From Eucommia ulmoides (taxonomy: Eukaryota; Streptophyta; Magnoliopsida; Garryales; Eucommiaceae), in the NCBI GenBank assembly GCA_016647705.1, contig CM028333.1, forward strand, positions 13,785,616 through 13,849,615: a stretch of 64,000 nt of DNA. Direction: 5' to 3'. Made by a program: the position numbers and the translations under genes. The notes beneath the pieces are model-generated. The model made no database searches and was not told the origin of the DNA. It saw only the letters and a program-made list of their open reading frames with translations. Of the stretch, positions 15,893 to 64,000 are shown piece after piece. The number at the start of each line of letters is the position of its first letter. Position 1 is the first letter of the stretch.

Positions 15893-16375
15893 TTGATGGC
15901 AGTTTCTCTAGTTTCTCCAGGTTTAATAGAGATGTATGTGGGTTCTTCGCTCATTATCAATGCCAAAGAGGGTTCAGATCCTACCTCCAATACTGTAACC
16001 ATGTTTATTGCAAATTTAGCTTCACTCCTCCATCATATATTCTCCAAAAATGGTACAAATCTTTCCTCTGCTCTTTCACTTACTACAGGTAACTCTTCTT
16101 GGTTCTTTGATTCTTCTTGTTGTAACCATATGACATCTGATCCCAACATTTTTTCAACCAAACTCTTCGCTGTGAATATCCCTAGTATTCATACTACTGA
16201 TGGTTCTCAAATACGTGTTACTCATACCGGTCAGGATTCTACCTCTCATCTTGTTATTCTTGACACGAATTTGATTCAGAAACTCACCTTAAATCTCTTA
16301 TCTATTGGAAAACTTTGTGAATTAGGATTTGAAGCCATATTTTCTAATAGTGGTTGTCGTGTGCAGGATCCTTAA
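15893..16375 (+). pseudogene. Copia 2 pol: protease and GAG-pre-integrase start
   Basis: An open stretch of 160 codons. It contains SSWFFDSSCCNHMT, the copia aspartic protease site, where the usual catalytic DSG or DTG reads DSS. Then come the typical ILDTNLIQKLTLNLLSIGKL block and the L-G-F-x-x-x-F block. It ends in a stop before the GAG-pre-integrase domain, whose GTxxKVGxLFELNNLYLP block can still be read after 16376 across stops. The changed catalytic triplet and the lost gag upstream mark a dead element. Confidence 0.85.
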
Positions 16376-30569: not shown

Positions 30570-31178
30570 TAATTCCTTTCGTCTTAATCTTTGTTGTACA
30601 CCTTTGAATTCAGAGATTTGGGAAACTCTTAAAATCATGAATGACTTAAAAGCTCCGAGCTTGGATAGGTTTCAACTCATATTTTTTTAAGAGAAATTGA
30701 AGTGTTGTGGGTTCTAATGTTTGTAATTTTGTTAGAAACTGCTTTACTAATTCTAAAATGTTTGTAATTTCTATCAAAACTCTCATTGCTCTTATCCCAA
30801 AAGTTGATAATCCTAAAAGAATTAGTCAATTTAGTCCTATAAGTCTATGTAATACTACGTACAAAATAGTTTTGTGCTGAGTCGTATGACCACGGATAAT
30901 GTTATCATTACCTAGGAAATTATTCACTTTCTTAGAAAATCTAAAAACAAAGATGGTGGCATTATAATAAAAATTAATCTTGAAAAGGCTTATGATATAA
31001 TCCGTTAGGACTTCCTTAGGGATACCTTTTTTTTTCTTTTAACCTCCCTAGCCTTTGGATCAATTTAATTATGTCATGTGTTACTAATGTGTCCTTACCT
31101 ATTCTCTGGAATGGGAACCCCTTGAGGAATTTAAACCTTCTAGAGGACTTAGGCAAGGAGATTCTCTATAACCTTATC
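30570..31178 (+). pseudogene. L1-type LINE, part 1: reverse transcriptase N-terminal half
   Basis: A decayed frame reads SEIWETLKIMNDLKAPSLDRF near 30615. Then come TLIALIPKVDNPKRISQFSPISLCNTTYKIV near 30780, IIIKINLEKAYDIIR near 30960 and GLRQGDSL near 31150. These are the conserved plant L1 reverse-transcriptase blocks. No endonuclease domain is recognisable upstream. The frame is cut at 31178 by the foldback element and resumes at 52338. Confidence 0.85.
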
Positions 31179-31799
31179 TAGGGCTGTGCAAAAATACCGA
31201 CGATCTGACCCACCTGCCATAATCGACTAGCCTGGCCTGTAAAATTCGGCTCAGATGAGTTAAGAAAAAACAGTTCCTCTCTCCTCCATCAACGAAGTGG
31301 CACTCCTTCTCTTTCATTAACTCTAGCCTCCAAATCCATCGAAATCTTCAATTCCGTTCATTGTTTTGCCTTCGTGGCTTCGTAATCGTAACTCTCCCAT
31401 GTAAATGAATGTGTTTTCGACTACTGGATTGAATGTTGGTACTTGATTTTCGACTACTGGATTGAATGTGGTTTCCGTTGAATTCTGATTCAGACCATTA
31501 CTACTTGGTTTTCGACTACTGTATTGAATGTGGTTTCCGTTGAATTCTGATTTAAACCATAACTTGATTTTCGACTTGGAATAGGAATGTTTTTCATTTC
31601 GATTACTGGTTGAGGAACAAGATTCATTTTTCTCATTGCAAGCAAAACCGATGATGGCCTTGTCACTTCTAATAGAAGATTCTAAATATAAGGTTTTGCT
31701 CTCATGGAGATCCAAGCAGATTAAGATTGCCTTATCTGCTTTGCTTCTCCCTGATTGCAAGCAGAACCGATGATCTTTCTGATTGCTTTGCCTTGAGGT

Positions 31800-32010
31800 T
31801 TTAGCTGCTCCTGATGGGAGTGCGCTGCAGCGGGGTAATAGAGCATTGCAACGCGCTTTTATGGCTGATTCTGATAGGAGGGCACCGTAGCAGGGTGAGA
31901 ATCGCGTTGCATTGTGCTTCTAATGGGCTTAGTTCTGATGGGAAGACGCTGCAACCTTTTTTTCCTGATGGCCGATTATGATAGAATCACGCTGCAACGC
32001 GCTTCCACCA
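31800..32010. repeat. CTGCAG-centred palindrome block, left arm outer copy
   Basis: Tandem modules of the type CTGATGGGAG + GCGCTGCAGCGGGGT + ... + CGCGTTGCATTG. Palindromes start at 31823 and 31844, 31883 and 31905, and near 31947, so members of a pair are 21-22 bp apart. Many copies differ by C-to-T or G-to-A at CG, as expected for methylated DNA. Confidence 0.75.
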
Positions 32011-32600
32011 AAAATTACAACCAAATCACTTCGTTTACTATTTAATCGATTTTAAAATTGAATAATTTAGTTCAATTATCCGTCCTTTAAATTTGGTGAA
32101 TGTGTGTATATATATATATTGGAATGAATGTGGTTTCCGTGGAATTCTGATTTAGACCATTACTTGATTTTCGACTTGGAATATGAATGTTTTTCATTTC
32201 AATTGTTGGTTCAGGAACAAGATTCGTTTCTTTGGTTGCAAGCAAAATCGATGATGGTCTTGTCCTTGTCCCACTTCTAAAAGAAAATTCTAAAGATGAG
32301 GTTTCTCTCTCATGAAGAACCAAGCAGACTAGGTAGTCTCATTCGTTTTGCTTCTCCCTAATTGCAAGCAAAACCGATGATCTCTCTGATTGCTTTGCCC
32401 TGAGGTTTTTCTCTCTTGGAAATGCAAATAGATTAGGGCTACCTTATCTGTTTTGCTTCTCCCTAATGATGGTCTTGTCCTTGTCCTTATCCCACTTCTA
32501 ATAGAAAATTCTAAAGATGAGGTTTTGCGCTCATGGAGATCCAAGTAGATTAGGGTTGCCTTATCTGCTTTGCTTCTCCTTGATTGTAAGCAGAATAGAT

Positions 32601-35210
32601 TGTCACGACCCGTCCCGGACACCCGTCATCCCGGGGCCGGCATAACGACAACACGACATAACTTGAACGCCAAACCAACACACAGAGCAACAAAGTACAT
32701 ACCACCTGTATAGCACCAAAATATAATTATCCATATACAAATTTATCTACTATGGGGACATACCCATCCCCAAATATAGGAACAACCAAAATTAAAAAAC
32801 CCATGAATCTCTCACAGATTCACCCCAGATAGCTCAACTCAAAACTTACACCTGACTCCATTGTAGGACTCTATCTAGTGCCAGTAGGGGACCGACTCCT
32901 AGCTGTTCCACCTGCAAGTGTACTGTCTTCTTAGTAAAAACCATTTTCTACATAATAATAATACAATATTTAAATGGATCAAGTATAAATATATAAACAT
33001 CACACAGCTGGTAAAATCTCCAATATATAAGCAGTGAAAATAAAGCGATATAATCCAGTATAAAATCATACTAATCACCATAATAAATAATATATCACCC
33101 AACATAAGTAAAACACCACATCTCAAACACACATATCAACCTCATACCCACCGGCTAAGCCATAGTGATCGTTTTAACCTCATGATCGGGAGTTACAACG
33201 GTACCGTAACCATTCGTAGGATATGCATTCCTAACGGACCTAACTGCGCAGATCCCCGCCTACCGGACATCTCCGGAGGCCATAATATAAATCACCACAT
33301 AATATCGATCACCAAATATAAATTACCACCTGCTGGACCACCCTCTGGACAGGACATAATATAAATCACCACCTACCGGACCACCCTTCGGACATGACAT
33401 AAACTATGGCATAATCAACTCAATAATATCATCATCAAATCACAAATCAATATCCATCTGCCAGACCACCCTCCGGACAGACCATAATATAAATCACCAC
33501 CTCATCAATATCGTCACAATCACTAACGTCCACCTCTTTTTTGCAAAACCAACTTTTAAATCCGAAAATCATATTTTTCACTTTTGATTGAAAACCATCT
33601 AATTTTAACAGAACCATTTTTTTCCCCTTTATATTTTTATGAAAACCAAATATTTTCTATCCTCTTTTGAAACCACCAAATTCAACAAAACTCATTTTTC
33701 AACTTTCTTTTAAAACCACCATATTTTAACGAAAATCCATTTCCGCCAACTCACCCAAAATCCAACGGAAATTATTTTAAATCCTTTTTTCTAGAAACCA
33801 ACACAATTCCCTAAAAAGATCGTTTTACCAACTCACTCCAAAAACCTGTTTGATCACGCGGTGTCACTATTCACGCGGTGTCACTGTTCACGATCACTGT
33901 TCATGCATGCGGATACTATTCACGATCACTGTTCATACCTCCGTTTGATTTGTCTTGTTTTGTTTCGTTTTTTCCCGATTTTCTCCAAACAAACGATAAT
34001 TAGTTTCTTTTCTTTTTCTTATTTTTTTGCATTTTTTGAAATAAAATAAAATAAAACAAAGTTAATTATAAAATAAAGTATAAATTTTTTAGGGGGTGGT
34101 CAAAATGTCGTGTCTACAGCTGCCTACCGCCTAAGCGAAACGGCCACCGCCTAGGCGAACTCGCGCAATTTTAGTTCCTAAAGTTCCACCGCCTACGCGA
34201 AACCGTCACCGCCTAAGTGGACGATCGTCTTCCTCTTTGCTCTGTTTTGGGTTTCTCAGCCGCCACTCTCTCTCTCTCTCTCTCATCTTACCAACTCAAC
34301 TCCGGCAACCATGCCACCAACGGCCCATACACACCCACAACACACACACAAACCTCACCGTCACAGCACACACAAGGACCTCACAAATACCCCCATGCAC
34401 CGTCGGACGAACAACACCGCCGACGACACCCTCTCTCTCTACTCCGACGGCTCACCTCCGACCTAAACAACACACACCCATATAGCAGTTGGACACCTAA
34501 AAAATACCCAGAGCACACAAACACACTCAAATCCACACAATCGCCGACCACTGGACACTCACCAACGAACCCACCTTCACTTCTCTCTTTTCCCTATTTT
34601 TCGACGACACACACACACATGGCATACCCACATACACACATACTGCTCACATACAAACATACACAACAATACACACACAACACACATGACGATTACGAAA
34701 ATAGAACACATACACACCCACTTACCGGAGACAAGGCATCCACACCGCAAGCCCACTGCCAGCGACTCTTCTCCCTCTTCCTTCTCTTCCTTTCTCTCTC
34801 TTCCTTCTCTTCCTTTCTCTCTCTTCAGTTCCGGACCCCTTTTCCTGTTTTATCTTTGTGTGTGTGTGTATATATATATATACACACACACACACATAAG
34901 AAATGTGCATATGCTCACCGGCCGGATAAGACCATGCCTCCCCCTTATCACTTCACCAACTCCCATTCTCTCTCTCTCTATATATATATATGAAGATATT
35001 TTTGTAATATTACACAAACCTCCCCCTTATATTATGTTGGGGTAGCAATTAAACTCAATTTATGTTTTAATGTTTATACAAAATTCCAATACAACCTCCT
35101 AAAATTTTAATTCATATAATAAATATCGAAATCTACCCCGGTATTTTTTTTTTTTGAAATATTTAAAACGTGGCTTGAATTTTATGTAGGTCAAAAGTCG
35201 GGGTCTTACA
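32601..35210 (-). mobile_element. Solo LTR E, Ty3-gypsy (Del/Tekay-like), 2610 bp
   Basis: Plus-strand ends TGTCACGACCCG...GGTCTTACA. Flanks TAGAT (32596-32600) and CAGAT (35211-35215) agree in four of five bases, and removing it rejoins a foldback subrepeat. Same family as solo LTR D, with shared CCAGTAGGGGACC and CTCATGATCGGGAGTT strings. CGCCTAGGCG-type palindromes occur at 34128, 34148, 34190 and 34210. The 34217-34993 open frame of 258 codons is CA/CT-repeat sequence and not a gene. Two repeats of TTCACGATCACTGTTCAT lie at 33886-33940. Confidence 0.88.
34128..34219. repeat. Two pairs of CGCCTAGGCG-type palindromes in LTR E, 20-bp spacing
   Basis: CGCCTAAGCG at 34128 and CGCCTAGGCG at 34148; CGCCTACGCG at 34190 and CGCCTAAGTG at 34210. 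Both pairs are spaced exactly 20 bp, as in the unrelated LTR A. Confidence 0.85.
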
Positions 35211-36727
35211 CAGATGATCTCTCTGATTGCTTTGCCCTGAGGCTTTTGAGAAACAAGATTAGTTTTCTCTATGAACAAGATTGTTGTTGTTTTTGTTTTC
35301 ATATTTTTAGCTTTGATTTGTTTTGGTGAAGATGAATAAGATGAGGGTACATTTCAAAATCTCTCACTCCTTTTTATTTTATGTTTGACTGCTCAGAATA
35401 CAAAAGAATATTGTTGTAATGCAGTTAATTGCAAGCAGAACTGATGATGGTCTTGTCCTTGTCCTACTTCTAATAGAAAATTCTAAAGATGAGGTTTCTC
35501 TCTCATGGAGATCCAAGCAAATTAGGGTTGCCTTATCTGCTTTGCTTTTCCCTGATTGCAAGTGGAACTGATAATCTCTCTGATTGCTTTGCCCTGAGGT
35601 TTTTGAGGAACAAGATTTGTTTTCTCTATAAACAAGATTGTTGTTGTTTTTATTTTCATTTTTTTAACTTTGATTTGTTTTGGTGAAGATGAACAAGATG
35701 AGGGTACATTTTAAAATCTCTCACTCCTTCGTATTTTGTGTTTGGCTGCTCAAAAAATGAAAGAATATTGTTGTAATATAGAATAACAACGAGAGCATCT
35801 TAGTCGTCTTCCTCGATTCTCCTTCCAAGCTTCAACAATCACTCTTTGTCGTCTCGTCTTCCTCGATTCTGTGACTGTGACAGTTTGAATATGTTGTTCC
35901 TCGATTTGTCGTCTCGTCTTTCTCGATTCAACAATAGTTTTTCTAATTATTGTTTGAATTTGATGTTTTGTTAATTTGTTTTTTTTTTTTTAATCTTCGA
36001 TTTTGATTTTTGTATGGATTAGGGTTTTTATTTTATTGTTTTCAATTACGGTTTTGTTAATCAGAGTTGGAAATTAGATTTGTTAGGGTTTCGTTAGGGT
36101 TTTGTTCATCCTTCTGCCTTGACAGACCCGCCTAAAATAGCTTAAGAACAATAAAAGGCTTATTCGCTGTCTTTCTCTCATCATTGTTGAGGAAATAGTT
36201 CGCTTCTATGAGGTATGAGAAGACCTGTGCTCAGGCCTTAACATCATGTCAGATAAAAATCTCTCTCACTGTTCTTCAAGTTTTTATATTTTCATTTTGC
36301 CAGTTACCAGTATTGGGGTTATCTGATATGTTTTTATTTTCTTGCAAACCTGTCTGAGGGAACTCGCGTGATGTGGCAGCGACGCTCTGACTCAATCTCC
36401 CTCTTAGATTTGACACAGGTAGAAAGATATTGTCATGTTAAACACAGTTTCCCTTTCCTATATATCTTCTCTCTATATCTATCTAATTATTTTGGTGAAT
36501 TCTATCTACTACTCTCTACTTTTCTATTGCTTTGTACGATGACCATGTTTGTGGTTGCATATATTTTGCTTTACATTTGCTTATATTTTCTCTTAATTGC
36601 TATTTTTTTTTTGTTATAAAATCATTGTCTAAACTCTGAATATTCTATCTAGTTTCTCTGTTGCTCTTTTTTTTTTCAATTTCTTTACTCTAGTTTACCT
36701 TTTGTCATGCATACCGGGCTCTAAGCG

Positions 36728-36922
36728 GTGTTTGTTCTTTTGGGGGTGGTTATTTTTGTGATTATCATTCGGATAATCTCCAGCATCACCACCATCTCCA
36801 AATCTTCTACCCCCGCCACCACCTCCTACACCTCCATTACATGTTCTGATGTCTCCTCCACCTGTACTACCTCTTTTGATGATTTTTGGGCCTTTATGAA
36901 TCTCGATCCGGAACCAAGGTAA
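36728..36922 (+). pseudogene. Mirrored exon-like segment, Ser/Thr-rich frame (or Gly-rich on the other strand)
   Basis: The plus frame reads VVIFVIIIRIISSITTISKSS, then a Ser/Thr-rich part and FDDFWAFMNLDPEPR, ending at a possible splice donor CCAAG/GTAAGG. The mirror copy on the minus strand (49731-49516) keeps nearly the same frame. Read from the other strand the same segment is Gly-rich and ends in a GDYPxDNHKNN string. I do not recognise the source gene, and the true coding strand is uncertain. Confidence 0.35.
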
Positions 36923-37289
36923 GGTGTTGATTATGTTGTTAATTTAATTTTTGTTGTTATGTTGTTTTGTGTCTAATATAATATTCTAAAGATGAAGTTT
37001 TGCTCTCATGAAAGTTTTGCTATTGTGTTAGGGTTTTCTCTCTCAGAAATTGAAGGTTAGGTTTTTTTTTTTATTACTTTATTTTCGATTTAGTATTTAT
37101 TGAATTCTTATTTAGACCATTACTTGGTTATTAACTACTGGATTGAATGTTGGTACTTGATTTTCGACTATTGGATTAAATGTGGTTTCCGTTGAATTTT
37201 GATTTAGGCCATTACTTGATTTTCGACCTAGAATAGGAATGTTTTTCATTTTGATTGCTGGTTGAGGAACAAGATCCGTTTCCCTGATT

Positions 37290-37700
37290 ACAACTTGCAA
37301 GCAAAATCGATGATGGTCTTGTCCTTGTCCAACTTCTAATAGAAAATTCTAAATATGAGATTTTGCTCCCATGGAGATCCAAGTAAATCAGGGCTGCCTT
37401 ATCTGCTTTGCTTTTCCCTGATTGCAAGCAGAACCGATGATCTCTCTGATTGCTTTGTCCTGAGGTTTTTCTCTCATGGATATGCAAGCAGATTAGGGTT
37501 GCCTTATCTACTTTGCTTCTCCCTGGTTGCGAGCAGAACCGATGATGATCTTGTCCTTGTCTCACTTCTAATAGAAAACTCTAAAGATGACTTTTTGCTC
37601 TCACGGAGATCCAAGCAGATTAGGGTTGCCTTATCTTCTTTGCTTCTCCCTGATTGCAAGTAGAATCGATGATCTCTCTGATTGTTTTGCCCTGAGGTTT
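37290..37700. repeat. Tandem array of about 110-bp foldback subrepeats
   Basis: The unit runs TTGCAAGCAGAACCGATGAT, then a variable part with TCTGATTGCTTTGCCCTGAGG, then CTCATGGAGATCCAAGCAGA and TTAGGGTTGCCTTATCTGC. Copies also occur at 31620-31790, 32220-32600, 35216-35640, 44880-45260, 45660-45840, 48600-49060, 50820-51240 and 51650-51850, inverted in the right arm. The many LysArgSer- or LeuProTyrLeuLeu-rich open frames in the region are just this unit. Confidence 0.8.
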
Positions 37701-38399
37701 TTGAGGAACAAGATTCTTTTTCTCCATGAACAAGATTGTTGTTGTTTTGTTTTCATATTTTTAGCATTGATTTGTTTTGGTGAAGATGAACAAGATGAGG
37801 GTACATTTCAAAATCTCTCACTCCTTTGTATTTTGTGTGTCTAATAGAAAATTGGTTGCAAGCAGAACTGATAATGGTTTTGTCCTTGTCCCACTTCTCA
37901 TTATAATATTTATTGTTATTATTTTTTTTCATTATAACTATTATTGTTATTCTTAAATATTTTGTTTTAAGAATAGAATATCACGCTTTGATACAATGGA
38001 TGTAGAAGCTTGCAGCTCGTTGGATGTTAAAGAAAACGCGATATTTCATGTACAAGAAGTAAGGTAAATTTCTATTATTGTCGTTATTGTTGGGAAAATG
38101 TGTTATAATTAGTATCTCGTTGGATATTATTATTCTTAAATTTTTGAAACTGAAATTCTCATTTGTTTATACGCAAGTACTTTAATAGCTAAACTGACCT
38201 TAAATTTGTTTTGAAAATTGTGATAAATGATTAGTTTTTCCAATGAATTTTATAACAATTAAACCTAAATAAAATATTTAGGTTCAGATTAGGGCCAATG
38301 GTTTAGATTTTACCATAACTCAATAGTAATTTTTCATACTTCAGCACTGTACTTATTGTTGTTTAAAGAAAAAGAAAAAAACCAATTTTTATTGTTGTT

Positions 38400-38800
38400 T
38401 TCTTTGAAACAGCGTACCACGTCGTCTAACAAAGCGACAACCTATTGTGTTATACCCTAGGGTCATGTGGCCGGGGAAGAGAGTATTAGCGTTTGTCGTT
38501 TTGTGAATACTTTTTGCGTAAATCTTCAAATCGAAGCTCAGTGGCACCCGCGTTGCCGTTGGAATGGGGATTACTAGAACCGAAAATGATCAAACTCTTG
38601 GATTTTGATATCTTTAAAGTCGTTAACACTTGGGAAACTAAAATACTATCCAACAACTATGTTTTTCTATTTGTGTAATAATTTTTTTTTTTTTTGCTGT
38701 TTGAACATTTATAATTATAGTCTAAGATTTTTAGTCCTACAAGTTTGTGTGACCTGTAGGACTGGGAATGTTGTTGTCTTGCCTTTTCGTTGTAGAATTG
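38400..38800. pseudogene. Mirrored exon-like segment, unknown origin
   Basis: Together with 37985-38066 this looks like two exons and an intron. The first reads MDVEACSSLDVKENAIFHVQEV and stops at a GTAAGGT-like donor. The second, after a CAG near 38412, reads PRRLTKRQPIVLYP. The mirror copy (48330-48245 and 47905-47510) keeps both frames with mostly conservative changes, which argues for a captured gene piece. No family recognised. Confidence 0.4.
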
Positions 38801-39599
38801 GGACCTGAAAATTGAATCTGTAAATATATTTTAAACAACAATATATTTTATTATTTTATTTTGTCTATCTATTATATCTCTTTAATAATATATTTTATTT
38901 GAACTTCTCTAATTTTTGTTGAGGATTTTTTTGTGCATATTGTTAAGTTGACAAGAAGCAGAGAAGGATAAGAACATATACAAATGTTTTTGTTGGGTGA
39001 AAATATTTTTGTAATAATAATTAATAAGTAAGTAATTATGGAACTTAATAACTTGCTGACTTGTTTGTCTGTAATACTGATTTATATTTTTGTGTCAATG
39101 AAGATGAGAAAATTGATGCTGAAACTAATGACCAAGAGCAGCATCAATGTCAAAGTGTTCAACTGAATTTTGATAATTTTGGAAAGTATTGAATGCAGTC
39201 ATGAATAGCAACAAACATAACACAATTGCATTATTTTTAATGACTATTAGAAACTTGCTGATTTGTACTGATTTATATGTTTATATGCTTATACTGATTT
39301 ATATGTTTGATAAGTTACAGATCTATACTGATTTATATTTTTATGTTAATAAAGATGATGAAATTACTGAAGGTGTTATGGATGTAAAGTGTCAAAATTC
39401 TCAAAATTTTAGAACAAAACTTCGAAAACAGTATAGTATTGACCCAAATTTTAATTTCTACTCTACAAGTTTACTTAGAAGGATAACAAAAATTTGTGAA
39501 CAATTCTGTTCCCAATAATCTATTCTAAAAATTCGGTGCAATAAATAGAAATATGAGAATAAAAATACTAAATCAAAGATCTAGCTTATATGTATTGTC

Positions 39600-40260
39600 T
39601 TTGATCACCAATAGAGCGTTGTAGTGCGCTTTTACGTCTAATTCTGATAGGAGGGCACTGCAACGGGGTAATATAGAACTGCAGCGTACTTTTACGACTG
39701 GTTCTAATGGGAGGACGTTGTAGCTGGATGAGAATGGCGCTACAATGTGATTCTGCTGGGATTGGTTTTTTATGGGAAGGCATTGCAGCGAGTTTATATC
39801 GCACTGTAGCACGCCTTTTTTTCTTTGATGAACGATTTTGATGGAAGCGTGCTGCAACACGATGCTGGTCCGCTGCAACGCGTTTTCTCCAAAAATTACA
39901 ATTAAAATCGCTTCGTTTATTATTGTCTTTGATCACCAATCATTGAGATTGTTCATTGGCTGCATAAGGTTCGGATTGAATTTTTTACGAATATTTTTTT
40001 TTTTAAATAAAAGACTATATGTCATTTAAGATCCAATTTTTTTTTTTGTAGCAAATGAAAAGTGATTTTGGAACGGAGCGCGCTGTAGCATGCTTTCACA
40101 TCTAGTTCTGATAGGAAGACACTGTAGTGGGATAATATAGTGCTACAATGCTCTTTTACGACTGGTTCTGATGGGAGGGCACTGCAGCGGGATGAGAATG
40201 GCGCTGCAGCACGATTCTACTGGGCTTAGTTCTGAAAGGAGGGCGTTGCAACAAGTTTAT
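39600..40260. repeat. CTGCAG palindrome blocks at the inner end of the left arm
   Basis: Modules with GCACTGCAACGGGGTAATA and GAACTGCAGCGTAC occur at 39650-39700, and GGCGCTGCAGCACG at 40200. Palindromes at 40180 and 40202 are 22 bp apart. The mirror is 41030-41750. Decay is mainly C-to-T and G-to-A. Confidence 0.75.
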
Positions 40261-40265
40261 AAGAT

Positions 40266-41025
40266 TTTTTTAAAAAATATTATCTCAAAAATTGTGTTCA
40301 ACAATTCAAATTTATTATATTATTAATTCAGTATGCAGTGTGGGTTGTTATATGTATTTAAAAAATAGAGAAGATCAAAATTTATTATATTATTAATTCG
40401 GGACAGATGTGTTAAGAAAAAACAATTTCTCTCCTCCATCAACGAAGCAGCGAAACAGTTATCTCCTCTTCTCTCATCCATCAACGAAACGGCGCTCATT
40501 CTCCTTCATTAACTCTAGCTTTCAAATCTATTAAAATCTTTAATTCCATTGATACACAATATAAATTCTTTCATCTCTAGGGTTTGTTTTTTTAGTTCAT
40601 TGATTCTTTTGATTTCGATCTCGCCTCTTCATCGTTCATCTAGATCCAGTCCAAGATCCAAATCTATGGTTTTTTTCTCTTAGATATTGAAGGTAAGGTT
40701 TTTTTTTTTTTTCATTACTTTATTTTCGATTTACTGTTCATTGAATTCTGATTTAGACCATTACTTGGTTTTCAACTACTGGCTTGAATGTTGATACTTG
40801 ATTTTTGACTACTGGATTGAATATGGTTTCTGTTAAATTCTGATTTAGACTATTATTTGATTTTCGACTTGGAATAATAATATTCACATTTTGATTGCTG
40901 TTGAGGAATAAGATTAGTTTCCCTAGTTGCTCACAGAACCGATGATGGTCCTGTTCTTGTTCCACTTCTAACAGAAAATTCTAAAGATGAGATTTTTGCT
41001 CTCATGGAGATCCAAGTAGATTAGA
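40266..41025 (+). repeat. Spacer (loop) of the foldback element with a third copy of its outer sequence
   Basis: About 760 bp between the arms. From about 40395 it carries GTTAAGAAAAAACA..., CTCCTCCATCAACGAAGC and CATTAACTCTAGC, the sequence found just inside the left end (31258-31400), in the same orientation. A subrepeat ending near 41030 follows. So the loop is a partial element copy, not unique DNA. Confidence 0.65.
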
Positions 41026-42628
41026 GTTGCAGTGCCCTCCCATCAGAATCAGCCTAGTAGAATCATGCTGCACTGCCCTCCCATCAGATCCAAGCCCAGC
41101 AAAATCGCGCTGCAGCGCCATTCTCATCCCTCTATAACGCCCTCCCATCAAAACCAACTGTAAAAGCGAGTTGCAACACTATATTACCCCGCTGCAGCGT
41201 CATCCCCTTAGAACCAAACGTAAAAGCGCTCTTCAGCGCTCTATTAATCCGCTGCAGCGCGCTCCCTTCCAAAGTTACTTTCTATTTGCTACAAAATATT
41301 TTCTAGGATCCTAAATGACATATAGTCTTTTATTTAAAAAAACAATGTTCGTAAAAATTGGATCCGAATCTTATGCAGCCCATAAACAATCCCAATGATT
41401 GGTTATCAAAGACAATAGTAAACGAAACAATTTTTGTTGTAATTTCTGGAGGAAACGCACTGCAGTGAATCAACATCGCGCTGCAACATGCTTCCATTAG
41501 AACCGTCCATCGAAGAAAAAAAGGCGCGCTAGAGCGCGATATAAACCCTCTACAGCACTCTCCCATCAGAACGAAGCTCAGCAGAATCGTGCTGCAGCGC
41601 CATTCTCATTCCGCTACAGTGCCATCCCATCAGAACCAGCCATTAAAGTGCCCTGCAACACCATATTATCCCGATGGAGTGTCCTCCTATTAGAACTAGA
41701 TGTAAAAACACACTGCAGTACTCTATTGGTGATCAAAGAAAATAAATATAAGCTACATCGTTTGTTTAGTGTTTTTGTTCTCATATTTCAATTTATCGCA
41801 CCAAATTTTTAAAACAGATTATTGGGAACATAATTGTTCCCAAATTTTTGTTATCCTTCCAAGCAAACTTGTGGAGCAGAAATTAAAATTTGGGTCAATA
41901 CTGTACTGTTTTCGAAGTTTTGTGCTAAAATTTTGAAAATTTTAGCACTTTGCACCCCTAACACCTTTAATAATTTCTTCATCTTTATTAACATAAAAAT
42001 ATAAATCAGTATAAATTCGTATTTTAACAAACTTATAAATTAGTATAAGCATATAAACATATAAATCAGTACAAATCAACAAATTTCTAACAATCATTAA
42101 AAACAATACAATTGTGTTATGTTTGTTTCTATTCATGACTGCATTCAATACTTTGTAAAATTATCAAAATTCATTTGAACACTTTGACGCTAATGTTGTT
42201 CTTGGTTATTTGTTTCAGCATTAATTTTCTTATCTTCATTGACACAAAAATATAAATCAGTATTATAGACAAACAAGTCGATAAGTAATTAAATTCCATA
42301 ATTACTTACGTATTGATTATAATTACAAAAATATTGCCACCCAACAAGTTATATGTCATTTTTTTTCCCTGCTTCTTGTCAACTTGACAATATTAACAAG
42401 CAAAAGACACAAAATAAAATCTTTAATCAAATAACTTAATATATGGAAATAAAACTACAACTAATATTAAAACTAATAACTTCAGTATTGCTAACATATT
42501 TTTCAATTCAACAATTTTTTCAAGAAGCAAGAGATGGTCATCAGTTATACTTTGGCCCTCTAGGATACTTGAAGAAGCCTCCCCCATGTCAATGTCACTA
42601 ACCTTCTACTTTTCATTATCACTGGCTT

Positions 42629-43018
42629 TCATCTTTCCATTGTCACTGACCTTCTTCTTGCGATTAACCTTATCCCAACCGACCTCATCCCACCAACAAT
42701 TTTTTTTTTTTTTTTATTATCACACGTGTCTTCACCACATTTATAAAATAATTTATCAGGATTTTTAACAATATCACTAATATATATTCTTGCATTGACC
42801 TCCTCCCCCCCCCCCCCCAGCAAATTATAAAACCAGATTTGTCCATTAGGGTAAACAACAACATCTTCCCATGGCTCAGAGAATTTACACATATCACCAC
42901 TGTATTTATATACCAATTTCTCATTCCTTACTTCTAATTCTGCCTTACGACTACATGGACAGAACTTATTGTGAAATTTGATCCTTCCACTTGTTGATGG
43001 TGACTTTGATGATGACAT
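42629..43018 (-). CDS. Putative GRF-type zinc-finger protein, 129 aa, degenerate
   Basis: Starts MSSSKSPSTSGRIKFHNKF, then CPCSRKAELEV, KLVYKYSGDMCKFSEPWED and, after an insertion, KNPDKLFYKCGEDTCDN. GRF zinc fingers have CxC(G)xxA, then a KNPGRxFYxC block, then CxFxxW. The first finger here has Tyr instead of the third Cys, and the second finger lacks the first CxC. A poly-C run (42807-42820) and a poly-A run (in the minus sense) inside the frame suggest instability. GRF proteins are often spread by plant transposons. Function unknown; possibly a pseudogene. Confidence 0.4.
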   Translation of the reverse strand: MSSSKSPSTSGRIKFHNKFCPCSRKAELEVRNEKLVYKYSGDMCKFSEPWEDVVVYPNGQIWFYNLLGGGGEEVNARIYISDIVKNPDKLFYKCGEDTCDNKKKKKIVGGMRSVGIRLIARRRSVTMER

Positions 43019-45469
43019 TCTTCCACTTGATGATGATGGCTTTTATGACGACATTAATTCTCCTCCAATAAAAATAAAACATCAATAACTAAAGTCAAGT
43101 AAAAAAATTGAGAAAATGTAGAATTAGTTACATATTAATTATCATTATAGAAATTGAGAAACTGCAGGAGAGGTAAACACTATTGTGACAAATAAAGAAG
43201 CAGTCAAGCAAGCAAACAGAATTGTGATACAGTTAAAAATTACAGTAGAATTGTGCATAATAATAAAATTCATTTCCATGAAAAATTTCTTTCGAGAGGT
43301 TCGGTGATTTTTGGTCTAGTAGGTAAGGCATGAGATATTTTCTAGTTAGAAACAAGAGCATGACCCACACGAATCTACTTTTTTGGCTAAGTTTGGATCC
43401 CCTGTGGTTGTCTTGCCTCAAATGCAAACTATTTTTCTTTTTTATAGCAAGGTATGAAATAGTATTACTCGATTCTGAATAGTCATCTTTGAAATTGAAG
43501 TTTTTGCATACTATTTTTTTTTTTTTAATTTTGATAAGATTTATATTCGATACAATGGTTATAAATATGCATTATCGTAGTAAGATTTGCCTTCAGTATA
43601 AAGGCGCATTTTTATTGTTGATAATTTAGAGTTACGAGGAAATAAATGGCTTAACTAAGAGCTCTTTATTACATCAACTCAATTATGAGGGGATTAAACT
43701 TGTTTTTCCTTCTGATTTACAAGAAGCAAGAAGCAAGAAAAATTGTCCACCAAAACAAATCAAAGCCAAAAATATGAAAATGAAAATAGCAAAAGTCTTG
43801 TTCGTAGAGAAAACGAATCCCGTTCCTATTCCTCAACTAAAATACAAATTGGTGCCAGGAAACAAGCAAAATAAAAATTGAAAGGAACCCAATATTCTCA
43901 GTGAATAAAACCCTAATTAACAAAATAAAGAAGAAAAAGTAACAAAAACACAAATTGATGCCAGTAAACAACCAAAATAAAATCCTTAATGCATAAACAT
44001 CAACTAATAGTTGAAATCTCATAATTCAATAAACAGTAAATCGAAATCTACTGACCTTCAATTTTCGATAGAGAAAATGGATAAACTAAACAAAGGGCAA
44101 TGAAAGATACTTTTTGTTCTCTATAAACCCTAATTTTGAAAAGAGACAGAGAGAGAGAAATTGAGAGTTGCAAACCTAAAGAGATAGAGAGAGAAGGGAA
44201 AATAAAGGGCAATGAGAGAGACTAAGAGCATCTTCAAGGGCAATGAGAGTCGGACAACATTTAAACGCAATCTTGACATGGGGATGAGATCGTGACTGAC
44301 GGGTCAAAGTAGTGTACAACTATGAATAGTTTATAGTAATTGCACAATTCCGTAAAATCCACAATTTCTTCTCTCTCTTTGCATATGAATGGCCTTTTCC
44401 TCTGTTTAGGGTCATTCGTATGTACAGCTAGACATGGTTGAAATCCATAATTTCTTCACTCTCTTTGCAAACGAATGGCCATTTACACTGGTTGAGTTTG
44501 ACAGACTGTATTAATTCTAGGGCTTTAATTTTTTTCGGCCGATAATAAGCTCATTTGTTGAATAAGTTTATTTGAATTCCCCAAGCAATCCTTAATTTGG
44601 AGAAACCACTTGAAACAAGTTTGTTCCACCAAAGCTTGAACTCGGGGATTGACATTCCACTTCAAGATCGCATTTATGTGTTGTCCTGCTCTCCTTGTCA
44701 TTTTGTATTACACAAAAATATTCTTTTATTTTTTGAGCAGTTAAACACAAAATACAAAAGAGTGAGAGATTTTGAAATGTACTCTCATCTTGTTCATATT
44801 CACCAAAATAAATCAAAGCTAAAAATATGAAGAAGAAAAAAAAAAACAACAACAATCTTGTTCATAGAGAAAATGAATCTTGTTCCTCAAAAATCTCAGG
44901 GTAAATCAATAAAAGAGATCATCGGTTCTGCATGCAATAAGGGAGAAGCAAAGCAGATAATGTAACCCTAATCTACTTCGATCTCCATGAGAGCAAAATC
45001 TCATCTTTAGAATTTTCTATTAGAAGTGGAACAAGGACAAGACTATCATCGGTTCTACTTGCATCTCCATGAGAGAAAAACCTCAGGACAAAGCAATCAG
45101 AGAGATCATCGATTCTGCTTGCAATCAAGGAGAAACAAAGTAGATAAGGCTACCCTAATCTACTTTGGATCTTCATGAGAGCAAAATCTCATCTTTAGAA
45201 TTTTCTATTAGAAGTGGGATAAGGACAAGACCATCATCAATTTTGCTTGCAACCAGGGAAACGAATCTTGTTCCTCTACCAGCAATCGAAATGAAAAACA
45301 TTCCTATTCCGGGTAAAAAATCAAGTAGTGGTCTAAATCAGAATTCAACGGAAACCACATTCAATCCAATATATATATACACATTCACCAAATTTAACGA
45401 ACGGATAATTGAACCAAATGATTCAATTTTAAAACCAATTAAATAGTAAACGAAACAATTTAGTTGTAA

Positions 45470-45650
45470 TTTCTACTAGAAGCACGTTGCAGCGCGATTC
45501 TATCAGAACCATCCATCGGGAAAAAAATATTGTAGTGTCTTCCCATTGAAACCAAGCCCAGCAAAAGCACGTTGCAGCGCGATTCTCAATCTACTATAGT
45601 GCCATCCTATCAGAACCAACCATAAAAACGCGCTGCAACACACTCCCATA
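45470..45650. repeat. CTGCAG palindrome block in the inserted 5-kb part
   Basis: Modules such as GCACGTTGCAGCGCGATTCT at 45480-45500 and 45565-45585, and CGCGCTGCAACACACTCCCAT near 45630. Same family as the arm blocks. A further block lies at 46265-46500 (near GCACTGCAGCGGGTTTAT and GCACTGCAGCGCGTTTC). Confidence 0.7.
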
Positions 45651-46669
45651 AGAATCAGTCGAAAGCTCAAGACAAAGCAATCAGAGAGATCATCGGTTCT
45701 ACTTGCAATTAGGGAGAAGCAAAGCAGATAAGACATTTCTAATCTGCTTGGATCTCCATAAGAGCAAATATCATCGTTAGAATTTTCTATTAGAAGTGAC
45801 AAGATCATCATCGGTTTTGCTTGCAACCAGGGAAACAAATCTTGTTAACCTCCAATTTCAACACAAATCTAGCTTCTATTAGCTAAATCCACTATCACAA
45901 TTTTCAAATCAAAACCCACACTCCACCAACAATGAAATTTTAGCTTCTCAATTTCAAATCTCTCTCTCAAATAACTTACTTAATGATTTTGTTGGCAAAA
46001 CCTTGACGAAAGAAGTCCACTTCGTGCCATTTTCCTCCTTGAACTATTCTTCGTTGAGAAAGTTGGAGAGGGTTGGTGTATAGGGTGTTTAAGAGTTGAT
46101 TTGTGGTTTTTTTATGATAAAAAATTTGGTTTCGTAGTAAATGAGAAGTGATTCTGGTAGATTAGAGATGAGTTGGTGGGGCTGGATTAGGGTTTTAGGA
46201 TGATTTGGAATGGAGGGCGGCTAGGGTTTTGAAATGAAAGATAAGAAAAGAAATCGCGACATTCATATCACATCTGAAGAGAAGGCACTGCAGCGGGTTT
46301 ATATTGTGCTGCAGAGCACTTTTTTTTGTAGATGGATGGTTATGATGGAATCGCACTGTAGTGCAATTTTAGTCGGCTGCAACGTGTTTCCACCAGAGTG
46401 TGATCTTTTTTTTTTAGCACTGCAGCGCGTTTCTGTCAGAATGTGAACTCTCTTTTGAGCATTGCAGTGCGTTTAAAGTCCGTTGCAGCACGTTTCTGCT
46501 AGAATGCATCTTTGTTCCTGCGCCATTAATTCTATTTCATCACGTGCGAGGTTTCCTCGATATCCTGAATAGTCCTTTCTCCTCTTCATTACTCCACAAC
46601 TTCGCACCATGACCACGGCCTTGCCCTTTTTTTGATCATCTTTTTTTTCTTCAATTAACACTAAGAAAA

Positions 46670-47108
46670 TTTTAATTTTCGTAAATTTAATGTCTATAAT
46701 TTATGTATATTATATTTTCTCTTTATATTATTTTTTAATTTAAATTCCGTTAACTTGATTATTGCTAAGTTTGATATTCATATATTATTACAATTTTTGT
46801 AAATTTAATGTTCACAATTTTCGTATATTATATTTGGTCTTTTATATTATTTCTTTAATTTAATTTTTATAAATTTAATATTCCAGTATTATTACTAAAT
46901 TTATATTATTCCTATAATTTCTATAAATTTAATATCCATAATTTATGTATATTATATTTCATTTTTCATACTATTTTTTTTAATTTAATTTTTATAAATT
47001 TAATATTTTGGTATTAATATTAAATTTAATAAGCATATATTATTTGTATAATTTTTATAAAGTTAATGTCTATAAGTTCTATATATTATATTTATTCCTT
47101 AAAGTATT
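46670..47108. repeat. AT-rich satellite, about 3.5 copies of a 120-130-bp unit
   Basis: Repeats of AATTTnTATAAATTTAATGTCTATAATTTATGTATATTATATTT followed by TTATATTATTTTTTTAATTTAATTTT. Starts near 46670, 46791, 46912 and 47050. Confidence 0.7.
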
Positions 47109-47331
47109 ATGATTTACCAAAAAAAATCAAGTATTATGAATAAGATATCTACCAATGTTTCTAAATATTCCAGTTTTTGTTGATCTTGTGTTTATTCCCT
47201 GTTTTTGTTTATTTTTATAGCTTTGCATTCTGCTTTTGGCCTTTGGTTTTGCTGCTTTGCTTGTGCAGCTTTGTTCCTTCGTTTTAATGAAAGTTTTCTT
47301 ATCAAAAAAAAAAAAATCCAATCGTATCTAA
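47109..47331 (+). mobile_element. 3' end of a LINE with poly(A)
   Basis: TTTTAATGAAAGTTTTCTTATC followed by a 13-base poly-A run at 47307-47319 is the typical end of plant L1 LINEs. The preceding T/G-rich 3' UTR (from about 47160) fits. No coding part remains. Confidence 0.5.
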
Positions 47332-48349
47332 AAGTTAAATAACATGTGGTTATAAGGCTAAAGATTCGATTCAATATGCATAAAATTCTCAACAAAAATT
47401 AGAGAAGTTCAAACAAAACATATCATTAAAGAGATATAATAGATAGATAATAAAATCATAAAATATATTGTTGCTTAAGATATATTTACAGATCCAATTT
47501 TCAGGTCCCAATTCTGCAACAAAAAGACAAGGCAACAACATTCCTTGTCCTACAGGTCACACAAACTTGTAGGACTAGAAATCTTAGACCATAGTTATAA
47601 AAGTCCAAACAATAAAAAAAATAAAAATAAAAATTACACAAATAGAAAAACATAGTTTTCGGATAGCATTTCAGTTTCCCAAGTGTTAACTACTTTAAAG
47701 ATGTCAGAATCCAAGAGTTTGATCCTTTCTGGTTCCAGTAACTCCCATTCCAACCACGATGCGGGCACCACTGAGCTTTGATTTGAAGATTTATGCAAAA
47801 ATATTCACAGAACGACAAACTATAACACTCTCTTTTCCGGCCACATGACCCTAAGATATAACACAATAGGTGGCCGCTTTGTTGGACGACGCGGTATGCT
47901 GTTTCAAAGAAAACAACAATAAGAACTGATTTTGTTTTTCAACAACAATAAGTACAGTGCTGAAGTATGAAAAATTACTATTGAGTTATAGTAAAATATA
48001 AACCATTGGCCCTAATCTAAACCTAAATATTTTATTTAGGTTTAATTGTTATAAAATTCATTGGAAAAACTAATCATTTATCACAATTTTTAAAACGAAT
48101 TTAGGGTCAGTTTAGTTATTAAAGTACTTGTAATGTATAAACAAATGAGAATTTCAGTTTCAAAAATTAAGAATAATAATATTTGACGAGATACTAATTA
48201 TAACACATTTTCCCAACAGTAACAACAATAATAGAAATTTACCTTACTTCTTGTACATGAAATATCACGTCTTCTTTAACATCCAGCGAGATGCAAGCTC
48301 CTACATCCATTGGATCAAAGCGCGGTATTCTACTCTTAAAACAAAACAT

Positions 48350-48402
<53 letters not shown>
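48350..48402. repeat. (AAT)n microsatellite
   Basis: About 17 uninterrupted AAT triplets in the right arm, with further AATAAC units up to 48430. The mirror position in the left arm (37900-37960) has only imperfect TTATTATT, so the expansion followed arm formation. Confidence 0.9.
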
Positions 48403-48404
<2 letters not shown>

Positions 48405-51400
48405 AAAATAATAATAACAATAAATATTATAATGAGAAGTGGGACAAGGACAAGACCATTATCGGTTCTGCTTGCAACCAATTTTCTATTAGAGACACAA
48501 AATACAAAGGAGTGAAAGATTTTGAAATGTATCCTCATCTTGTTCATCTTCACCAAAACAAATCAAAGCTAAATATATGAAAATAAAAACAGTAACAATC
48601 TTATTCGTGGAGAAAACGAATCTTATTCCTCAAAAACCTCAGGGCAAAGCAATCAGAGAGATCATCGATTCTGCTTGCAATCAGGGAGAAACAAAGAAGA
48701 TAAGGCAGCCCTAATCTGCTTGGATCTCCGTGAGATCAAAAAGTCATCTTTAGAATTTTCTATTAAAAGTGAGACAAGGATAAGACCATCATTGGTTCTG
48801 CTCGCAACCAGGGAAAAACAAAGTAGATAAGGCAGCCCTAATTTGCTTGCATCTCCATGAGATAAAAACCTTAGGACAAAACAATCAGAGCGATCATCAG
48901 TTCTGCTTGCAACCAAGGAGAAGCAAAGCAGATAAGGCAACCCTAATTTGTTTGGATCTCCATGAGAGCAAAACCTCATCTTTAGAATTTTCTATTAGAA
49001 GTGGGACAAGGACAAGGCCATCATCGATTTCGCTTGCAAGTTGCAATCAGGGAAACGAATCTTGTTCCTTAATTAGCAATCGAAACGAAAACTATTCCTA
49101 TTCTAGGTTAGAAATCAAGTAATGGTGTAAATCAAAATTCAACGAAAACCACATTCAATCTAGTAGTCGAAAATCAAGTACCAACATTCAATCCAGTAGT
49201 CAAAAACCAAGTAGTAATGGTCTAAATGGGAATTCAACGGAAACCACATTCAAGCCAGTAGTCAAAAATCAAGTACCAACATTTAATCCAGTAGTCTAAA
49301 ACCAAGTAATGGTCTAAATCAGAATTTAATGAACAGTAAATCAAAAATAAAGTAATAAAAAAAAAAAAAAAAAAAACCTGACCTTCAATTTTTGAGAGAG
49401 AAAACCCTAACATAACAACAAAACCTCCATGAGAGAAAAACCTTATCTTTAGAATATTATATTAGACACAAAACAACATAACAACAAAAATTAAATTAAC
49501 AACACAATCAACACCTTACCTTGGTTTCTGATCGAGATTCACAAAGGCCCAAAAATCATCAGAAGAGGCAGTGCAAGTGGAAGAGACATTAAAACAGGTA
49601 GTGGAGGTGTAGGAAGTGGTGGCGGGGGTGGAAGATTTGGACGTGAGGGTGAAAGATTTGGAGGTGGTGGTGGTGCAGGAGATTATCCGGATGATAATCA
49701 CAAAAATAACCACCCTCGAAAGAACACACACTACTTAGCGCCCGGTATGCATGACAAGAGATAAAGTAGAGAAAAGAAATTGAAAAAAAAGAGTAACAAA
49801 GGAACTAGATAGAATATTCAGAGTTCAGACAACGATTTTATAACCAAAAAATAGAAATTAAGAGAAAATATATGCAAATTTGAAGCAAAATATATGCAAC
49901 CACAAACATGGCCATTGTACAGAGCAATAGAAAACTAGAGAGTAGTAGAGAGAATTCACCAAAATAATCAGAAAGATTAGAGGGAAGTGGAATTGTGTTT
50001 GACATGACAATATTTTTCTACCTGTGTCAAATCTGAGAGAGAGATTGAGTCAAAGCGCTGCCGCTACACCTCGAGAGTTCCCTTAGGCCGGTTTGCAGGA
50101 AAATAAAAATATAACAGAAAACCCTAATACTGGCAACTGGCAAAATAAAAATATCAAAATTTGAAGAACAGTGAGAGAGATTTTTATCTAACCTAATGTT
50201 AAGGCCTGAGCATAGGTCTCCTCATACCACATAGAAGCGGACCATTTCCTCAATGACGACGAGAGAGAGACAATGAATAAGTCTTTTATTTTTCTTAAGC
50301 CATTTCGGGTGGGTCTGTCAAGGCAGAAGGATGAACAAAACCCTAACAAATCTTATTTCCAACTCCGATTAACAAAACCCTAATTGAAAAAAATAAAATA
50401 AAAACCCTAATCCATACAGAAATCAAAATCGAAGATAAAAAAAAAACAAATTAACAAAACATCAAAAAGAACTACTGTTGAATCGAGAAAGACGAGACGA
50501 TGAGACGAGGAATCGAGGAACACCATATTCAAATTGTCATAGTCATAGAATCGAGGAAGACGAGACGACGAAGAGCTATTGTTGAAGCCTGGAAGGAGAA
50601 TCGACGAAGATAACTAAGATGCTCTCACTGTCATTCTGTATTACAACAATATTCTTTCGTTTTCTGAGCAGGCAAACACAAAATACAAAGGAGTGAGGTA
50701 TTTTGAAATGTACTCTCATCTTGTTCATCTTCACCAAAACAAATCAAATCTAAAAATATAAAAACAAAAATAGCAAAAATCTTGTTTGTAGAGAAAATAA
50801 ATCTTATTCCTCAAAAACCTCAAGGCAAAGTAATCAGAAAGACCATTGGTTCTGCTTACAATCAGGGAGAAACAAAGCAGATAAGGCAACCCTAATCTGC
50901 TTGGATCTCCATGAGAGCGAAACTTCATCTTTAGATTTTTTTTATTAGAAGTGGGACAAGGACAAGACCATCATCAGTTCTGCTTGCAACTAGAGAGAAG
51001 CGAAGCAGATAAGGCAACCCTAATCTGCTTGCATCTCCATGAGAGAAAAACTTCAGGGCAAAGCGATCAGAGAGACCATCGGTTCTGCTTGCAATCAGGG
51101 AGAAGCAAAGTAGATAAGGCAGCTTAATCTGCTTGGATCTCCATGAGAGCATAGTCTCATCTTTAGAATTTTCTATTAGAAGTGGGATAAGGACAAGACC
51201 ATCATTGATTTTGCTTGCAACCAGGAAAACGAATCTTGCTCCTGAACCAGCAATCGAAATGAAAAATATTCCTATTCCAGGTCGAAAATCAAGTAATGGT
51301 CTAAATCAGAATTCAATGGAAACCATATTAAATTAAATATATATATACACATTCACCAAAAAAAATTAACGGACGGATAATTTAACCAAATGATTTAATT

Positions 51401-51439
51401 TTAAAACTGATTAAATAGTAAATGAAGCGATTTGGTTGT

Positions 51440-51645
51440 AATTTCTAGTGGAAGCGCATTGCAACGTGATTCCATCTGAACCGTTCATCGAGAAAAAAAG
51501 GTTGCAGCGTCTTTCCATCTGAACAAAGCCCAACAAAAGTGCGATTCTCAGCCCGCTGCAACGCCCTCCCATCAGAAGCAGCCATAAAAGTGTGTTGCAA
51601 CACTCTATTACCCCGTTGCAGCGCACTCTCATCAGGACCGGCCAA
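51440..51645. repeat. CTGCAG palindrome block, right arm outer copy
   Basis: Mirror of 31800-32010, with GCAACGTGATTCC, GCCCGCTGCAACGCCCTCCC and CCCCGTTGCAGCGCACTC modules. Nearly all copies have decayed at CG sites. Confidence 0.7.
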
Positions 51646-52337
51646 AATCTCAGGGCAAAGTAATCAGAGAGATCATCGGTTGTGTTTGCAATCAGGGTGA
51701 AGCAAAGCAAATAAGGCAGCCCTGATCTGCTTGGATCTCCGTGAGAACAAAACCTCATCTTTAAAATTTTTATTAGAAGTAAAAAGACCATCATTGGTTT
51801 TGCTTACAACTAGAGAAATGAATCTTGTTCCTCAACCAACAATCGAAATAAAAAACATTCCTATTCTAGATCGAAAATCAAGTAAAGGTCTAAATCTGAA
51901 TTCAACGGAAGCCACATTCAATCTAGTAGTCGAAAATCTAGTACCAACATTCAATCCAGTAGTTGAAAACCAAGTAGCAATGGTCTAAATCAAAATTCAA
52001 CGAAAACCAAATTAAATCCAATAGTCAAAAATCAAGTACCAACATTCAATCCAGTAGTCAAAAACCAAGTACCAACATTCAATCCAGTAGTCAAAAATAC
52101 AATCATTTACAAGGGAGAGTTACGATTACGAAGCGACGAAGACAAAGCAATGAATGGAAATGAAGATTTCAATGGATTTGGAGGTTGGAGTTAAGGAAGG
52201 AGAAGGATCTCTGATTCGTTGATAGAGGAGAGATGAATTATTTCTTCTTAATATATCTGACCCAAATTTAATGGGCTGGGCCAGTCGGTTACGGTGGGTA
52301 GGTCGGGTCGTCGGTATTGCACAACCCTAACCTTATC

Positions 52338-54654: not shown

Positions 54655-54659
54655 ATCTT

Positions 54660-62400: not shown

Positions 62401-62890
62401 TTTTACGGTTGCCCTTTCACTGCCACGTCAACATCATGTCAGCGTCGTGTTAATGCCATGTCATTAGTTCTCTGACATGTCATTTGCCACGGGTCTCTAG
62501 TCAACTCTTGCTTGTTGACCTGTTCAGGATGGCTTGAGAATTTATGTGGACTGGTTCACCTATTTTTTGACTGGTTCGTGAAGATTTAAAACCGATTCTT
62601 GGCTAATTTCAACGTTTTAAATCCATCCATTGCCTCAGTTTACTCAAATTTGGATAAAATAATATCATTCATTTTATAGTATTGATTCAATTCATCATGG
62701 TGTTTTGACCGGTTCAAGGGTTTATCAATCGTTCTTCACAATTATAGACCGATTCTTGGATAACTTCAGCATTCTAAATCTACTAGTTGTCCCAATTTCT
62801 CCAAATTTATATCATTCAATATACTTTGTTGTATATTGTTGATCCGATCAACAACGATGGCTAAGAATTGTTCTTCCTTGATCGTTTTTA
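62401..62890 (+). mobile_element. Copia 3 leader, diverged copy of the copia 2 leader
   Basis: Begins with decayed CACGTCA/CATGTCA motifs (62421-62485). It then follows the copia 2 leader order: GACTGGTTC, AAAACCGATTCTTGG and TTCATCATGG, as at 15560-15890. No 5' LTR or primer site is visible, so the element is truncated at its 5' end. Confidence 0.65.
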
Positions 62891-63960: not shown

Positions 63961-64000
63961 TTCTTTCCAGATCACTCCTACTGCTCTAATAAGAAAGCAA

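Follow-up and report, generated by a model that had tools for sequence, protein, structure and literature searches.

The 64,000-nucleotide window analysed here (C9:13785616-13849615 of the 946.7-Mb, 391-contig Eucommia ulmoides genome; the window itself has no undetermined bases) contains a 21,151-bp element at 31179-52329 that interrupts a long interspersed nuclear element (LINE). The element measures 18,538 bp once a solo long terminal repeat (LTR), LTR E, is removed. Its ends are of hAT type, and most of its interior is arranged as two mirrored arms around a short centre. Positions given without a contig are those of the window.

31171-31178 (no strand assigned): left copy of the target-site duplication, 8 bp, ACCTTATC
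52330-52337 (no strand assigned): right copy of the target-site duplication, 8 bp, ACCTTATC
31179-31266 (+): left hAT-type terminal region, ~88 bp common to other hAT-ended loci
52242-52329 (-): right hAT-type terminal region, inverted
31179-40261 (+): left foldback arm, including the solo LTR and lacking a 5-kb block
41058-52329 (-): right foldback arm, including the 5-kb block
40262-41057 (no strand assigned): loop or centre, a further partial copy of arm-tip and 5'-module sequence

A first-pass annotation of this window had proposed inverted hAT-type ends with an 8-bp duplication, set into a broken LINE frame, and both proposals hold. Identical copies of ACCTTATC abut the two ends of the element, whose terminal sequence reads TAGGGCTGTGCAA from 31179, with its inverted counterpart TAGGGTTGTGCAA running inward from 52329. 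When the flanks are joined with a single copy of the duplication, Pfam detects RVT_1 across residues 100-235 (E 2.3e-6; at 27.9 bits, slightly below the Pfam cut-off of 29.6), with the junction near residue 133; neither flank half alone yields RVT_1 at E<=1. The match spans the junction, and therefore a single event with these two ends interrupted the LINE. The joined reading frame holds stops, from which the LINE copy is judged to be old. These data confirm 31179-52329 as a single insertion whose ends are of hAT type and whose 8-bp duplication is exact. Mutator-type elements generate a duplication of 9-10 bp; the 8-bp duplication and hAT-type ends found here do not correspond to a Mutator-type foldback, no search aimed at a Mutator transposase having been made. 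A hAT domain was absent from the four of 13 listed window open reading frames (ORFs) that were scanned with Pfam, and none of the 150 scored PF05699 matches (of 1614 candidates) falls in the window.

The arms mirror one another about an axis near 41.03 kb, with ~6.2 kb aligned per arm. They pair as four collinear pieces, the second and third of which overlap by 128 bases; distances are Kimura two-parameter (K2P) values.

Piece 1, 31179-32595 with 52329-50850: 1403 aligned positions, identity 0.85, K2P 0.171
Piece 2, 35426-37227 with 50992-49199: 1752 aligned positions, identity 0.89, K2P 0.118
Piece 3, 37100-38942 with 49237-47372: 1829 aligned positions, identity 0.91, K2P 0.096
Piece 4, 38931-40261 with 42399-41058: 1321 aligned positions, identity 0.83, K2P 0.193

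Identities of 83-91% exclude gaps and become 80-89% when gaps are counted. Each piece scores between 1340 and 2436 bits, against 41 bits for the best inverted match in 20 Markov-1 shuffles, and the homology extends to the first base of both ends. Divergence between the arms is patchy, K2P ranging from 0.096 to 0.193 by segment. Because the arms are unequal and only 83-91% identical, an assembly artefact is unlikely, and the mirror structure is real.

Two repeat modules, M (~175 bp) and P (CTGCAG-rich, ~110 bp), were detected exclusively within the element. Single-copy queries returned 23 matches to M and 11 to P; the 15 plus-strand matches all end by 41035, the 19 minus-strand matches all start from 41026, and a single strand switch at 41026-41035 is thus obeyed by 34 of 34. 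A perfect switch holds for the single-copy query only, as a profile search returned 53 matches, again none outside the element, with 43 obeying the switch and ten exceptions. Seven of these exceptions are weak (59-68 bp, M positions 66-133) and lie on the opposite strand of M copies; the remaining three, at 41443-41496, 46273-46323 and 46307-46393, are to P. Copies of M (e.g. 37528-37701) weakly match themselves on the opposite strand over positions 66-133, which suggests a near-palindrome inside each unit. Foldback transposons such as FB, FARE and Galileo are non-autonomous and have long modular inverted arms, tandem repeats and a variable centre. The present element shares the long inverted arms, built of modular internal repeats, and the variable centre, and the earlier description of a modular foldback with mirrored arms is borne out by the four collinear pieces and the strand-switching modules.

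The two arms differ by an insertion in the left and by a block found only in the right.

32601-35213 (no strand assigned): LTR E, a solo LTR inserted later into the left arm, with 5-bp flanks TAGAT/CAGAT
42400-47371 (no strand assigned): 4972-bp block in the right arm, missing from the left, with CAATAT microhomology
38937-38942 (no strand assigned): left-arm junction at the site of the missing block, ATATTG, equal to CAATAT on the opposite strand
44687-45846 (-): extra copy of arm modules within the block

LTR E, which the first-pass annotation had correctly placed in one arm, starts TGTCACGACC and finishes CTTACA, and its duplication agrees at four of five bases, with one mismatch. A relative lies elsewhere in the window at 10590-10983 (75%, 405 columns) and 11157-11305 (73%). 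The block had been read as an extra of the right arm, and here the comparison with related loci reverses the earlier view. All five C10/C16-family copies compared (described below) match the right arm without a break across the block's inner border, and C14:58422501-58422690 does so across the outer one; only the left arm skips between the borders, at the 6-bp microhomology CAATAT. Since related loci cross both borders and the left arm alone jumps, the right arm contains the block and the left arm lacks it, and the same continuity led us to reject a right-arm insertion with a 6-bp duplication. The junction itself is observed, and the left arm would have come to lack the block through deletion or skipped copying.

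These borders bear on a further reading, in which independent nested insertions, or a chance cluster of inverted repeats, were later bounded by unrelated ends. The solo LTR is one independent insertion inside the segment, which also holds a fragment resembling a second family with hAT-like ends; however, the arms are collinear over ~6.2 kb about a single axis and related loci traverse both borders of the block, and we regard this reading as very improbable. Mirrored segments with duplications of their own, an alternative named at the outset, were not seen at the junctions examined: LTR E alone carries one, and the block borders are continuous.

The body of the element resembles several other loci in the genome.

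42286-43722 (-): fragment related to a tandem gene-like family on C10 and C16, containing the ORF 42629-43042 (-)
37036-37838 (+): 5' region of the same family, interrupted by a ~420-bp tandem array
35787-36132 (+): arm segment resembling the interior of another family with hAT-like ends
43652-44536 (no strand assigned): segment related (83%) to C14:32777678-32778628

The C10/C16 family comprises an array of tandem and inverted units at C10:5957001-5987000 plus one copy at C16:38462001-38477000, with a further partial copy at C13:8286 kb, and is matched wholly or partly, at ~77-97%, by 42286-43722, 44541-44890, 37036-37281, 39163-39375 and 39050-39112. The ~420-bp tandem units of both arms are absent from all five related copies (three C10, one C16, one C13). 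Two protein pieces are encoded by the family. One shows weak Pfam similarity, below cut-off, to DUF1985 (E 0.044 and 0.011) and DUF7195 (0.044), and tblastn placed it nowhere in the window (E<=0.01); the second is found in the window at 43042-42632. We take the two to be plant-mobile-domain-like and zinc-finger-like (GRF), resemblances that Pfam did not confirm, a GRF match being absent from the zinc-finger-like protein. At three loci (L068, L070 and L071), sequence resembling the arm segment 35787-36132 lies 350-363 bp inward of hAT-like ends; at another relative, L069, an end was not found at <=1 mismatch. C14:58.42 Mb is related, on one strand, to parts of 36273-38942 and of 46695-49274. 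Judged by these similarities, the body is a mosaic of genomic fragments as in Pack-hAT elements, the fragments presumably having been acquired by capture.

The C10 array has inverted as well as direct copies, an arrangement that fits a composite origin, in which two inverted hAT elements enclosed an inverted pair of the gene-like family and the outer ends moved the whole by alternative transposition. Composite Ac insertions are known, e.g. one of 19,341 bp (PMC4270019, as far as the portion available describes it). The termini weigh against such an origin. The end pattern, at <=2 mismatches, has six matches in the window (shuffles average 2.13, and six were reached in 2 of 100), among which the only exact ones are the element's two outer ends; the match at 46222-46234, inside the element, has 2 mismatches. 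No inner exact terminus was found in the window, where original inner termini could have been lost, and the mirror homology reaches the first base of both ends. We therefore consider a composite improbable.

Several of the related loci have features of their own. The C10 array (L059-L061) consists of units of a multi-exon gene-like family that are ~82-89% alike; successive units start at distances of 6.0 and 7.3 kb, and 26-27 bp separate the end of one from the start of the next. In the C10 and C16 arrays no facing end pair was found (13-mer, <=2 mismatches), with three single plus-strand matches and no reverse match. The relative of 43652-44536 (L041/L049, C14:32777678-32778913) is partly palindromic, the counterpart of 44295-44536 being repeated on the opposite strand after ~24 bp. 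L071 (C6:26600528 region) has an open frame (+2 from 288) near its hAT-like end that we take to be plastid rpoB, probably plastid DNA in the nucleus. Elsewhere in the window, 7721-9425 and 53836-54655 represent a dispersed repeat found also beside the C10 and C16 gene-like arrays, and 15681-17632 and 62553-63988 are direct repeats at the window's two sides, 72-79% alike.

By sequence, the ends of the element belong to a dispersed hAT-like group. Genome-wide, the 13-bp end has 298 exact occurrences and the reversed control 13; some of the 298 represent other sequence (L001 resembles a tandem repeat). The 22-bp left end, at <=2 mismatches, has 42 sites, the element's own left end included, against 0 for the control. 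We inspected 38 loci for facing ends, a set including four pieces of this element and two entries for one locus; most were read over 1.5 kb on each side of the match. Four had facing ends flanked by an 8-bp duplication, three exact and one 7 of 8; the other 34 had none.

L015: 892 bp, exact duplication GAAATGCC, first 80 bp resembling those of this element
L020: 939 bp, exact duplication AAATAAAT, first 80 bp resembling those of this element
L027: 771 bp, exact duplication GACAAGAA, other end group
L022: 794 bp, duplication 7 of 8, other end group

L015 and L020 bear the same ends with 8-bp duplications, and the second refuting result named in the first-pass annotation, that no other locus has these ends, applies in part only, to the combination of ends and body (see below). 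Two exact hAT-like 13-bp ends also stand directly in tandem at C4:12608635-12608660.

Candidate sources of transposase were sought by pairing 100 of the 298 end sites, all on C1-C7, with the 71 of the 150 scored PF05699 matches that lie on C1-C7. Seven of the 100 listed sites lie within 10 kb of a PF05699 match, all seven pairs being same-strand and the far edge of the match lying 3373-3800 bp downstream of the tip; ~0.006 same-strand pairs would be expected (3.0-3.8 kb, uniform places, 150 matches), for a span picked after seeing the pairs. Frames of 722-729 amino acids are present at C3:25478578, C3:25517165, C4:5244367 and C5:51607826, where the domain edge lies 3500-3800 bp from the end; these four loci share the 13-bp end and a ACCCGACC-rich stretch at their 5' ends. 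The paired frames at C5:15193273, C7:12381594 and C4:54887076 are of 277, 249 (with one TGA) and 128 amino acids. The element thus has two hAT features, an 8-bp target-site duplication and a short (13-bp) terminal inverted repeat common to transposase-bearing loci, and the long frames are a plausible source of the hAT transposase that the first-pass annotation had placed elsewhere in the genome.

To find further copies of the element, six parts of it were searched in the genome (31179-31420, 31179-32600, 35800-37030, 37840-38930, 39376-41057 and 42400-44680; 44681-47371 and some short stretches were left out). Full-length or near-full-length matches were confined to the element's own locus, and no locus combining the same ends with the same body was found; copies may have been missed because very common words are passed over in such a search and scoring is limited to the best candidates. 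The dispersed family of structurally similar copies that marks a foldback was likewise not recovered, and the claim of an established transposon family is not supported; the element is apparently single copy. A second foldback was considered at C14:58.41-58.43 Mb (pieces 58415141-58418268, 58421106-58425296 and 58427161-58430497) and is not supported by these pieces: one arm lies on one strand, accompanied by short, partly AT-rich opposite-strand pieces near 58416641-58416807, and a lone end-like match at 58428272 (<=2 mismatches) has no facing partner. An end-to-end element at C5:50921883/50930547 was rejected on its unequal flanking 8-mers (CTTTTAAT and TGCACAAA). C14:52903428, with a diverged end (77% over 88 bp) and modules related to 31275-31416 and 40562-40672, has no right end in 10 kb at <=2 mismatches.

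Overall, we consider it probable that this is a non-autonomous element of the hAT superfamily working as a foldback, its mirror made by copying during gap repair after excision. A hAT-ended element inserted into the LINE and generated the 8-bp duplication, the step to which the joined LINE match attests; genomic fragments would have been captured into its body in the manner of Pack-hATs. One end and the captured sequence may then have been copied, inverted, onto the other side, most likely while the gap opened by transposase excision was being repaired: each broken end would copy the same half of the sister element via the shared terminal repeat, and the strands would join at the centre. Such repair would leave the target duplication as it was and yield a short centre without a partner, flanked by arms that mirror each other from their first base. 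Subsequently the solo LTR entered the left arm and the arms diverged patchily, both seen in the present sequence; the left arm would have lost the 5-kb block at CAATAT, or failed to copy it. Transposase would be supplied in trans by a hAT family with the same ends, for which the loci above are candidates.

The main alternative is that the whole palindromic unit transposed into the LINE in the manner of a maize Ac macrotransposon; its size would be ~18.5 kb after subtraction of the LTR, or ~23.5 kb had both arms originally contained the block. This differs from mirror copying at the present site only in where the mirror arose, hAT ends and mosaic being common to both. The ends, the duplication and the LINE match all fit, and size is no obstacle, since the portion of PMC9910405 available describes a reinserted Ac macrotransposon of 10.3 kb and an excised one of 28 kb. 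The six parts searched revealed neither a donor nor a sister copy in this genome, and we hold transposition of the whole unit to be possible but rather unlikely. Gap-repair copying is favoured because it explains the mirroring from the first base, the one unchanged duplication and the single copy.

Several observations weigh against the gap-repair origin of a hAT foldback and its proposed mobilization. No second copy of the body was found, which leaves movement of the whole unit unproven. The spread of K2P across segments (0.096-0.193) means that one copying event needs later gene conversion, or that growth was piecemeal, and 10 of the 53 profile module matches, two of them to P and within the block, break the strand switch. 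The right ends of the candidate autonomous elements were absent from 640-655 bp at 3 of 3 loci (13-mer, <=3 substitutions). The closest end group (L013, L015, L021) differs from that beside the long transposase frames; by eye, one of the 42 close end sites is near a listed PF05699 match, at C10:9075807, 2.6 kb from the match, in a 149-amino-acid frame. The C10/C16 source family may itself be mobile, and capture of a host gene is therefore unproven.

Comparison with described systems is drawn from the available portions of the cited reports. Like Pack-TYPE hATs (PMC8903248), the element has hAT ends, an 8-bp duplication, no detected transposase and an interior shared with genomic loci, but its captured sequence forms a palindrome with two ~6.2-kb arms, a form undescribed in the part of that source consulted. 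Tetris of Drosophila virilis (PMC4079207) similarly has long modular inverted arms, tandem repeats, a variable centre and non-autonomous status; it makes 8-10-bp duplications and its authors assign it to Mutator, whereas the present element has hAT ends, an 8-bp duplication and one copy found. Most foldbacks seem, from the same partial source, to belong to Mutator, with exceptions. Maize Ac macrotransposons and composites (PMC9910405, PMC4270019) are, in the sections available, likewise rearranged, with hAT ends bounding units as large as 10-28 kb; in this element, unlike those, inner hAT termini were not found and the arms are mirrored to the first base. Mutator-like elements with multiple terminal inverted repeats (PMC3310237, in part) share duplicated terminal regions and are mostly non-autonomous plant elements, including Pack forms, but they belong to the Mutator superfamily, their end duplications are mostly tandem and they lack long mirror arms. 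Atlantic cod hAT-derived miniature inverted-repeat transposable elements at inversion breakpoints (PMC12368964) likewise consist of nested, repeated hAT-derived inverted repeats, but are tandem, ~2 kb and from a fish, and no foldback with captured fragments is described in the excerpt available.

Foldbacks, Pack-hATs and hAT macrotransposons are thus each already known. A hAT foldback combined with captured fragments was not found in the literature searched by title and start of abstract, a scope that omits most subscription journals and therefore offers weak evidence of novelty. The fullest version of this proposal, an 18-23-kb hAT-mobilised foldback whose arms were built by mirror-copying captured fragments and which transposed whole, as a hAT counterpart of Mutator- and P-type foldbacks and a possible small-RNA hairpin, is in our judgement doubtful. 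Foldback elements promote rearrangements, inversions among them. A foldback that has hAT ends and related loci to which its parts can be traced would reveal a further route to foldback structure, and from it one could follow how fragments are gathered, then mirrored, by a cut-and-paste element. If true, its long inverted copies of a gene family could silence that family, as a hairpin source of small RNAs.

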